Assembly: GCA_028867785.1 (NCBI GenBank)
Contig: JAGWFS010000001.1
Location: 124,001 to 188,000 of the forward strand
Source: Nitrososphaerota archaeon
Lineage (GTDB): Archaea > Thermoproteota > Nitrososphaeria > Nitrososphaerales > Nitrosopumilaceae
Length of the DNA stretch: 64,000 nucleotides
Reading direction: 5' to 3'
The notes beneath the pieces are model-generated. The model did no database searches, was not told where the DNA came from, and saw nothing but the letters and a program-made list of their open reading frames with translations. Positions within the stretch are counted from its first letter, which is position 1; each line of letters starts with the position of its first letter. The translations under genes and the position numbers were made by a program. This document shows, in pieces, positions 7,785 through 12,209 of this stretch.

Positions 7785-10700
7785 CTATTCTATCTTCTCG
7801 TATGATTCAAGCGGCTTTTTGGTGGTCTCATTGTGCCGCAGCCACTCTAGCGTCTTTGCAAAAGAGTCTGCTAGCTCTGTCGTTATCAGCACAGGAACCC
7901 CAAGCTCTACTGCCTTTCTTCTTATCTGGTACTCGTCGTAGAGCATGCCTACGTATTTTTCAAGTGTGGAGGTGCTTGGCACGTTGATTATGAAATCTAT
8001 TTTTCTCTCGTAGAGCAGGTCTGCGATGTTCGGCTTTCTCTGTGGCTCGCTGATTTTGTAGACCACCTCCACGTCGCCTATCCTCTTGTCTGACAAAAAT
8101 TCCGCAGTGTGCTCTGTCGCAAGTATCTTGTACCCGAGACTTTTGAGCAGCAGTGCAGTCTGCAAAAGTTTTTCCTTGTTTTCAGAGCCTCCAGCAGTGA
8201 TTAGTACAGAGCCCTCTTTTGGCAGCGCAAACCCGGAAGACATCAATCCCTTTGCAAGCGCGTCGTAAAAGCTCTCGCCAAAGCATGCCGCCTCCCCGGT
8301 TGACTGCATCTCCACCCCAAGTATGATATCGGCACCCTCAAGCTGCATAAACGAGAACTGTGGAACCTTTACTCCGTAAGAGTGGATCTTGCGCCACCTG
8401 TCCTTTGGCACATGCGGCAATGGCCTGCCAAGAACTGCACGGGCTGCTAGATTTATCAGATTCATCCTGACAAACTTTGATACAAAAGGCATGGAGCGCG
8501 AGGCCCGGATGTTCAGCTCTATCACATATACCTGGTCGGAGTTGATGAGAAACTGGAGGTTGAATGGCCCCTTTATCTGAAATGCCGATGCGATCTTGTT
8601 TGTGTAATCAAGGATGGTTTCAATCACCTTGTTGCTCAGGCTCCACGGTGGGATGCACATCATGGAATCCCCCGAGTGCACTCCTGCGCCTTCAATGTGT
8701 TCTATTACCGCGCCAATCACGACGTTTTTTCCGTCAGAGACCCCGTCCACCTCCGCCTCTAGCGAGTTTAGCATGAACTTTGTAATCACAACAGGATAGT
8801 CAGGCGATACGTTTGTTGCCTCGTCAAGGTATTTTTTGAGCTGCTCCTCCGACCACACAACCTTCATGGCAGCACCACTTAGCACGTACGACGGCCTGAC
8901 AAGCACAGGATACCCGACGCTGAGCGCAAACTTTTTGGCGTCTGCAAGCTTTGCAAATGCCTGCCAAGGGGGCTGCCTGATGTGCAGGTCGTCAAGCACT
9001 TTGCTAAAGTTCGACCTGTTCTCTGCCCTGTCAATGTCCTCAAAGGACGTTCCGATTATCTTGATTCCGTTTTTTGCAAGCTTTGGCGTGAGGTTGTTTG
9101 CAGTCTGCCCTCCCACAGCAGTAACAATCCCTGTAAGATTTTCAAACTCGGCAATGTCAAGCACCCTTTCCAGTGTCAATTCCTCAAAGTACAGCCTGTC
9201 GCATATGTCATAATCTGTTGACACGGTTTCCGGGTTGCAGTTTATCACGGAGACTTCTTTTACGCCGTTTTCTTTGAGCCCCCACACCATGTTGACAGTC
9301 CCCCAGTCAAACTCTACGCTGCTTCCTATCCTGTAGGGACCCGCGCCAAGCACCGCAATCTTTTCAGAGCTTGATGCAACCTCAAAGTCGTTTGCAGTCC
9401 CCCCGTATGTCAGGTAGAGATAGTTTGTCTGGGCCGGCCACTCGGCTGCCAGCGTATCGATTCTTTTTACCACCGGTGTGATGCCGTTTTCTTTTCGCAT
9501 CTTTCGTATCTCCATGTCGTCCTTTCCTGCAAGCCTTCCAATCTGCTTGTCAGAAAATCCAAACACCTTTGCTTCACGAAGTAATTTTTTATCGAGTTTT
9601 TCCTCTTTGAGGCTTTTTTCTTTTGCCACAATGTTCTGTATCTTTTCGATAAACCACGGGTCTATTGCAGACAGCTTGTATATTCTCTCAACTGCGATTC
9701 CCTGTCGCAGTGCGGCCGCCACATGATACAGTATCTTGTCATCTGCCTTTTGCAGTTTGTTTTCAAGATCCTCTATGTCATATGTCTCGTCTGCCTTTCT
9801 GTTTGCTACAAGACCGTCGTTTCCAATCTCAAGCATACGTATTGCCTTTTGCAGCGACTCCTCAAAGCACCGCCCAACTGCCATCACCTCCCCCACCGAC
9901 TTCATCGTCGGCCCAAGGTTTCGGTTTGCAAGCTCAAACTTGCCAAAATCCCATCTCGGATGCTTGCAGACGATATAGTCAAGCGACGGCTCAAAGCACG
10001 CAGTTGTGGTCTTTGTTATTCTGTTTGCAAGCTCTGGCAGCTTGTATCCCATCCCAATCTTTGCAGCCATGTATGCTATCGGGTATCCCGTTGCCTTGCT
10101 TGCAAGTGCAGAAGAGCGCGAAAGCCTTGGGTTCATCTCTATTGCGACGTACTTGTCAGAGTCCATGTCAAGTGCAAACTGGATGTTGCACTCTCCCACA
10201 ATGCCAACGTGCTTTGCCGCGCGAAGTGCGGCAGACCTCAGCATCTGATATTCATAGTTGTTTAGAGTCTGGGACGGTGCAACAACAATGTTGTCTCCCG
10301 TGTGGACCCTCATCGAGAGCACGTTCTCCATGTTGCAGATGATTACATTGTTGCCGTCATAGTCTGCCATTACCTCGTACTCTATCTGCTTCCAGTGTCC
10401 GACGTATTCTTCAATCAGGACCTGCCCCACAAGGCTTGCGTTGAGCCCGCGAGCTACAATCTCGTGCAGTTCAATCTCGTTGTGTGCGACTCCCCCTCCC
10501 TTTCCGCCAAGCGTGTATGCTACTCGTATGATTACAGGATAGCCAAGCTCGTTTGCAATCTCTTTTGCCTGCTCAAAGTTGTACACTGTCTTGCTTTTCA
10601 GTACTGGAACATTGCATTCGATCATGGAATCCTTGAAGAGCTGCCGGTCTTCTGTCGCCTTGATTCCAGAAACCTGCGTTCCAAGCACCCGCACCCCGTA

Positions 10701-11050
10701 TTTTTTCAGCGCCTCCATCTCATCGAGCTTGACACCGCAGTTGAGTGCGGTCTGACCGCCAAATCCGAGCATCAGGCCGTCTGGCCTTTCCGATTCTATG
10801 ATTGACGCGACATATTGCGGGTTTACAGGAATAGAGTATACCTTGTCTGCAAACCTTGTGTCGGTCTGGATTGTCGCGATGTTTGGGTTTACAAGAATGC
10901 TTTTGATTCCCTCTTCCTTGATTGCCTTGAGGCACTGAGAACCGGAGTAGTCAAATTAGCGGTCATTTTGTGACTTTCGCCTGCTTCTCCGATTTTTATT
11001 GCCCCGCTGCCAAGGACTAGAATCTTTTTTAGCGACTCATCTTTTGGCAT
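7785..11050 (-). CDS. carB: Carbamoyl-phosphate synthase large chain, 5' frameshifted by 20-bp insertion
   Basis: CarB makes carbamoyl phosphate from glutamine-derived ammonia, bicarbonate and two ATP, feeding pyrimidine and arginine synthesis. From ATG 11050 the frame reads LKKILVLGSGAIKIGEAGE, the family N-terminus, for 25 codons. Twenty extra bases (10956-10975) then break the frame. Downstream, the expected FDYSGSQCLKA continues in frame to 7785. Without the insertion the product is about 1081 residues, normal for the family, with both ATP-grasp halves and the C-terminal MGS-like domain. The first ATG after the break is at 10772, which would give a 995-residue protein lacking the N-terminal fold. 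The start overlaps carA by 14 bases. Confidence 0.93.
10956..10975 (-). other. 20-bp insertion inside carB
   Basis: Comparing the flanking codons with the invariant GE-FDYSG motif, exactly 20 bases separate the GAA (Glu) codon from the TTT (Phe) codon on the minus strand. The extra bases contain GTCA-CAAAA-TGAC, a small hairpin, and are bounded by AA on both sides. 20 is not a multiple of three, so the frame is lost. It may be a true mutation, a spliced element or an assembly error. Confidence 0.8.
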
Positions 11051-12209
11051 TGTCCTCCCCTATCAGTTTCTTGAGCTCTTCAAAAACAAACATGCAATCA
11101 AAAGGTCCTGGCGATGCTTCTGGATGAAACTGTACGGCAATCACTTTTTTCTTTGTGTGTCGTATCCCCTCCACCGTATTGTCGTCGGTATTTGCAAACC
11201 ATAATTTAAAATCAGTGTTCTTGAGCGATTCTGGATTGATGCAGTATCCGTGGTTCTGGCTTGTGACATAGACCTTTTTGTTTTCAAGATCAATGCAGGA
11301 CTTGTTCTGCCCCCTGTGTCCGTACTTTATCTTGTATGTCGACGCGCCTCCCGCAAGCCCAAGTATCTGCGCCCCGAGGCATATGCCAAGGGTTGGAATG
11401 TTTTTCTCGATCAGGTTCTTTGCAGTCTCCATTGTCTTTGCACACTTGACCGGGTCTCCAGGCCCGTTTGATATCACAACGCCTTTTGGGTTGTAGGAGA
11501 GAATCTTTTCTATGGAATAATTCCACGGTACTCGTATCACCTTGTATCCAAGATGTCGTACGTTTCGCAAGATTGCATTTTTTACCCCAGTGTCCACAAT
11601 TACTACAGACTCTTTTCCTTCCCCGTAGACCTGCGGCTCTTTTACAGATACGACGTCCATGAACTCCTCGTCGTTGTATTTTTTTGCAGCGGCAAGCTTC
11701 TTTTTGAGATCTTCGGCATCAATCTCTTTTTCAGATACTGCAAGTGCTGCCATCATTACTCCCCCCGTACGGAGTTTTGTGGTAAGTGCGCGCGTGTCAA
11801 TCCCAGATATGCCAGGAATCTTTTCGTTGTATAACCACTCGTCTAGTGTCATTGCAATGTTCCAGTGGCTTGCAGTAAGAGACAGCTCGTGCACCACAAG
11901 GCCTCTTGCCTGTATTCGGTCAGATTCAAAATACTTCCTGATGCCATCGCTGTCTTTTTCAGACTGGTCTGGAACCCCATAGTTTCCCACAAGGGGATAT
12001 GTCAGGGTCAGAATCTGCCCGCTGTACGACGGGTCGGTCAGGGACTCTGTATACCCTACCATTCCTGTATTGAATACTGCCTCCCCAAAGACAGTGGTTG
12101 AATAACCAAAACCTTTTCCTTCAAAAACGGTGCCATCTTCCAAAACAAGCTTACCAAACTTTTCTACGTGTTTGGCTTTTTTTGTTGGAATTTCTGTGAC
12201 CCTCACCAA
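11037..12209 (-). CDS. carA: Carbamoyl-phosphate synthase small chain (glutaminase)
   Basis: 390 residues. CarA hydrolyses glutamine and delivers ammonia to CarB. The N-terminal CPSase small-chain domain (LVLEDGTVFEGKGFG, then the GMVGYTESLTDPSYSGQIL signature) is followed by a class I glutamine amidotransferase domain with Cys277 in LGICLGAQ and His362/Glu364 in FHPEASPGP. The catalytic triad is intact. It is the first gene of the carA-carB operon, with a 14-base overlap that suggests coupled translation. Confidence 0.97.
   Translation of the reverse strand: MVRVTEIPTKKAKHVEKFGKLVLEDGTVFEGKGFGYSTTVFGEAVFNTGMVGYTESLTDPSYSGQILTLTYPLVGNYGVPDQSEKDSDGIRKYFESDRIQARGLVVHELSLTASHWNIAMTLDEWLYNEKIPGISGIDTRALTTKLRTGGVMMAALAVSEKEIDAEDLKKKLAAAKKYNDEEFMDVVSVKEPQVYGEGKESVVIVDTGVKNAILRNVRHLGYKVIRVPWNYSIEKILSYNPKGVVISNGPGDPVKCAKTMETAKNLIEKNIPTLGICLGAQILGLAGGASTYKIKYGHRGQNKSCIDLENKKVYVTSQNHGYCINPESLKNTDFKLWFANTDDNTVEGIRHTKKKVIAVQFHPEASPGPFDCMFVFEELKKLIGEDNAKR

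Follow-up and report, generated by a model that had tools for sequence, protein, structure and literature searches.

How is a full-length CarB made from a carB gene whose reading frame is interrupted after 25 codons? The question is raised by a 64,000-nt stretch of DNA (the window) from an ammonia-oxidising Nitrososphaerota archaeon of the Nitrosopumilaceae (GCA_028867785.1, contig JAGWFS010000001.1, positions 124,001 to 188,000), in which the 20 nt AGTCACAAAATGACCGCTAA (10956-10975, minus strand) separate the two pieces of carB, an essential gene of carbamoyl phosphate synthase, and break its frame. Here, we report a comparative analysis of this insert, which is very probably an archaeal bulge-helix-bulge pre-mRNA intron; that it is cut out and its exons joined in vivo we infer from the conservation of the insert, its fold, the covariation of the paired bases, the constraint on the exon codons, the stops in inserts of length 3n, the exact absence of the insert in relatives, and the enzyme genes of the genome.

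The interrupted gene

The first piece of carB translates to MPKDESLKKILVLGSGAIKIGEAGE, CarB residues 1-25, and the second to FDYSGSQC..., open for 1,056 codons until a stop (Table 1). The joined N-terminus aligns across the junction, with no break, to Escherichia coli CarB residues 1-335; human CPS1 also aligns straight across, and exon 2 begins at position 25 of TIGR01369. A preliminary description of this DNA had noted an exact 20-bp insertion at the codon pair GE|FDYSG, two intact pieces (25 and 1,056 codons) in register, a GTCA/TGAC hairpin, and AA at both insert ends; the insertion is confirmed to the base, the alignments bear out the register, and the hairpin and the AA ends are real.

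The unspliced frame would stop soon past the insert, as expected if carB gave two products, a short N-terminal peptide from the first frame and, from the second, a CarB starting downstream. This is most improbable: the residues flanking the junction belong to a single conserved N-terminal segment of the E. coli and human enzymes, insert-less relatives encode one continuous protein, and the pairing between exon and intron described below would be left unexplained.

Occurrence of the insert

All 28 same-genus relatives fetched carry an insert at the same GE|FDYSG codon pair (20, 21 or 22 nt), and inserts also occur in other genera of the family and in other families of the order. The lengths observed are 20, 21, 22, 23, 24, 25, 26, 27 and 30 nt; with such varied lengths and all three frames represented, no single frameshift explains the insert. 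Of 400 genomes of the order, 235 were matched by a covariance model; about 212 of these matches are strong (E of 5e-11 or better; a tally from the match table), and those of the weak remaining matches within the order that were inspected were insert-less carB genes. Strong matches were confined to this order (398 genomes across the phylum). Of the weak matches outside the order, the six longer than an insert-less site lay outside carB, gave no tRNA with ARAGORN, and were discarded as chance; carB was continuous in the five of these genomes where it was found.

The DNA frame is interrupted, and the preliminary description had accordingly called carB broken, offering a real mutation in an auxotroph, an assembly artefact or an RNA-processed element as explanations. 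"Broken" is misleading, since the insert has homologues across the order, and its recurrence at a single codon in many genomes that were sequenced independently, the single-contig genomes G006, G035, G043 and G092 included, excludes both the mutation and the artefact. The downstream 1,056 codons are intact and conserved, and this draft genome, which is 99.9% complete, contains no second carB. A true pseudogene or frameshift mutant, or an assembly error, is thus the least probable of the explanations weighed here, with next to no weight left to it; it is the RNA-processed element that gained support.

The insert-less carB alleles of sister lineages are exact to the base, and a single genus can be mixed (L041 without, L045 with the insert). 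Parsimony on a 76-row CarB tree requires at least eight changes of insert state, five of them forced by well-supported branches. The insert is absent from many marine Nitrosopumilus and Nitrosopelagicus records, which may be a reason why it stayed unnoticed.

Some records are irregular. Two carB loci or two intron matches per bin were found for L086 and L094 (both from the metagenome-assembled genome Nitrosotenuis nzgw11) and for genomes G284, G374 and G179, which are probably mixed bins. The carB of L118 (record Nitrososphaeraceae SCK_bin.6) is identical in the compared part to that of L134 (Nitrosarchaeum), and its name or binning is doubtful.

RNA structure

A 76-nt RNA from the window folds at -25.5 kcal/mol, compared with -14.9 kcal/mol for shuffled sequences (z, -4.0; 0 of 200 shuffles as good), into an outer exon-exon helix (AUCGGAG:CUCCGGU), a central 4-bp helix (GGCG:CGCU), two bulges, and an inner hairpin (GUCA:UGAC). 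In the central helix, GGCG of exon 1 pairs with bases at the intron's 3' end, CGCU in the window and CGYC in most relatives; the helix is flanked by the 3-nt bulges AAA and AAU, the second of which is drawn as 4 nt (AAUU) in the minimum-energy fold. The rule for the archaeal splicing endonuclease is a cut between the second and third bases of a bulge (PMC2738675). Both ends of the insert lie at exactly these places, and joining the exons at these borders restores the CarB reading frame.

Pairing is kept in 95.7% of cells over 45 distinct sequences (97.2% for the central helix alone), and shifting the pairing partner lowers it to 22-52%. Double changes occupy 43 cells, spread over six pairs, compared with 11.7 ± 2.4 in shuffles (0 of 500 reach 43). 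The most telling one is in locus L042, where the exon codon is GGT for GGC and the intron has CACC for CGCC.

Several points weigh against reading this structure as an intron. In 5 of the 45 sequences the first pair of the central helix is missing, and when a short piece is folded, the central helix shifts in the minimum-energy structure of many CGTC-form species. The outer helix is imperfect; to this extent the earlier judgment that a bulge-helix-bulge "only partly fits" was right, but it fails for the core, which has the strict form GGCG / AA^A / GUCA...UGAC / CGCU / AA^U and covaries. The compared sequences are related and the evidence is comparative, so the shuffle counts should not be read as probabilities. 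Nor is the motif diagnostic by itself: when contig C111 (392 kb) was scanned for bulge-helix-bulge mini-introns between broken frames, the totals were not above those of a sham pairing rule. In that scan carB ranked top on its own strand; the top candidate on the other strand proved to be two overlapping genes, and no further introns are claimed.

Exon codons and translation

Around the junction, the codons ATC, GAA, GGC, TAC and TCC are invariant in 56 of 56 insert-bearing genes, and GGA and GAC near it are each kept in 55 of 56. Most of these codons take several synonyms in the 24 insert-less genes, and adjacent third bases with no pairing role vary in the insert-bearing ones. In the insert-bearing set, none of the 162 other 11-codon windows examined in exon 2 was as constrained. 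Leucine codon +8 (CTC, 10929-10931), frozen in 56 of 56 genes, sits in an extended exon helix of the fold computed for the window; together with frozen codon -9 (GCA, 11000-11002), it lies outside the core motif, and these codons suggest a longer exon helix in the family, GGGGCA with TGCCTC.

Among distinct inserts whose length is a multiple of three, 22 of 22 contain an in-frame stop (6.2 expected by shuffling), an excess that is not a formal probability, as these inserts come from related sequences. Inserts of other lengths shift the frame, and a stop follows soon. Judged by these sequences, ordinary translation of the unspliced message cannot yield CarB in any insert-bearing genome examined. 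An ancient, selectively kept intron in a core metabolic gene of ammonia-oxidising archaea, whose splicing gates CarB production, is a tentative idea that we consider rather unlikely; if it is true, then with every unspliced message nonproductive (frame change or stop), splicing efficiency could regulate pyrimidine and arginine synthesis or couple it to tRNA splicing.

In gene 60 of phage T4, a hairpin gap with stop codons is bypassed in translation. The carB insert resembles that gap, being likewise a hairpin gap skipped in the protein, and programmed bypassing would here have the ribosome leave at GAA, skip the hairpin and land on the codon that precedes TTT. There is a precedent for confusion of the two mechanisms, as the introns of cbf5 were formerly mistaken for translational frameshifts (PMC2738675). 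Unlike gene 60, however, carB lacks a landing codon that matches its take-off codon: the ribosome would land on CAA, TAA, CAG, AAA, AAT, TAG or AAG and never on the GAA/GAG that would match the take-off (95 loci, some genomes twice). Bypassing was rejected on this mismatch. The covarying central helix pairs exon with intron, as the splicing endonuclease EndA needs, and exon codons are frozen on both sides of the insert, which also speak against bypassing and leave it very improbable.

Proposed splicing

If the insert is a bulge-helix-bulge intron, the carA-carB transcript would fold so that the exon GGCG pairs with the 3' end of the intron, with the inner hairpin and the outer exon-exon helix formed in addition. 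A two-subunit (alpha-beta)2 tRNA-splicing endonuclease would make one cut in each 3-nt bulge, past its second base, and the exons would be ligated by RtcB. The spliced message would read ...GEAGE-FDYSG... in frame and give full-length CarB, with the predicted junction peptide IGEAGEFDYSGSQCLK.

The catalytic endonuclease subunit of this genome is closest to Aeropyrum pernix EndA (3P1Z, 3.7e-41), which belongs to the broad-specificity class (PMC6379350). In the alignment the catalytic His is shared (chain 3AJV has Ala at this place), and Lys 44 of the broad-specificity loop corresponds to Lys 41 of the subunit. A second subunit, without the catalytic His, and an RtcB ligase gene are also encoded, and six tRNAs with 13- to 46-nt introns are predicted among the long tRNA genes of the same genome (ARAGORN).

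The RtcB gene (contig C261:179623-182418 of this genome, G000; locus L263, 221-3190, minus strand) has an in-frame insertion of ~1.3 kb that resembles an intein, starting with CLHPSTRVYTEDRNW and ending with HNFIANGIVVSN before a Cys. If this is an intein, as it looks to be, the ligase that would join the exons would itself mature by protein splicing.

Comparison with known systems

The cbf5 pre-mRNA intron of Crenarchaeota was reportedly treated by Watanabe in 2002. It resembles the carB insert in being a single short intron inside a protein-coding gene (16-44 bp in cbf5, 20-30 in carB), in its bulge-helix-bulge, cut after the second bulge base (predicted for carB) by a two-subunit endonuclease, and in being kept across orders with several losses. 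The length range of the cbf5 introns is that of Yokobori 2009 (PMC2738675), where Nitrosopumilus maritimus and Cenarchaeum are listed without a cbf5 intron. In contrast to cbf5, the host of the carB insert is a large metabolic enzyme, it belongs to a different archaeal class that includes soil and freshwater ammonia oxidisers, and its splicing is so far a prediction from sequence comparison.

Archaeal pre-tRNA introns share the bulge-helix-bulge core and the same predicted enzymes, whereas the host RNA of carB is a messenger, and its exon helix also codes for protein. The 5'-untranslated-region intron of Haloferax HVO_1309 (PMC7714728) is likewise a bulge-helix-bulge intron in an mRNA, cut by the splicing endonuclease, but it lies in the untranslated leader and that of carB inside the coding frame. 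According to that 2020 paper, cbf5 is the only additional reported archaeal protein-gene intron besides its own leader intron (PMC7714728). We found no report of an archaeal carB or carbamoyl phosphate synthase intron in the open-licence literature, and an earlier report elsewhere is possible.

The best reading is a known mechanism, the cbf5-type intron, in a new gene and clade, with splicing deduced from the comparisons above. Archaeal protein-coding introns are nearly unheard of, and carB would add a gene in a different, globally important clade, one in which exon codons would serve two functions at once. The very large comparative set of precise presence and absence makes intron gain, loss and constraint testable. 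Our results also suggest that the annotations of many genomes may give carB as truncated or frameshifted.

Features of the window

Table 1. Coordinates of carB, its putative intron, the predicted splice motif and carA in the window
Feature	Position	Strand	Evidence
carB exon 1, 25 codons MPKDESLKKILVLGSGAIKIGEAGE; start overlaps carA end	10976..11050	-	Translation; aligns to CarB residues 1-25
Putative 20-nt intron AGTCACAAAATGACCGCTAA	10956..10975	-	Homologous 20-30 nt inserts at the same codon across the order
carB exon 2, 1,056 codons + stop	7785..10955	-	Translation; TIGR01369 from model position 25
Central helix 5' strand GGCG, exon 1	10978..10981	-	Fold; GGC codon 56/56 in insert-bearing, free in insert-less genes
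Central helix 3' strand CGCT, intron	10958..10961	-	Fold; in L042 both sides changed (GGUG:CACC)
5' bulge AA^A with a cut predicted after 10976	10975..10977	-	Fold; cut from the rule in PMC2738675
3' bulge AA^T with a cut predicted after 10956	10955..10957	-	Fold; cut from the rule in PMC2738675
Inner hairpin GTCA-CAAAA-TGAC	10962..10974	-	Fold; four pairs with double changes (45 sequences)
Outer exon helix 5' strand (ATCGGAG, AG)	10984..10993	-	Fold, covariation, codon constraint
Outer exon helix 3' strand (CT, CTCCGGT)	10941..10950	-	Fold, covariation, codon constraint
carA, intact, upstream; overlaps carB start by 14 nt	11037..12209	-	TIGR01368

The draft genome (2.5 Mb in 327 contigs) is unusually large for its genus, in which relatives have 0.7-2.3 Mb.
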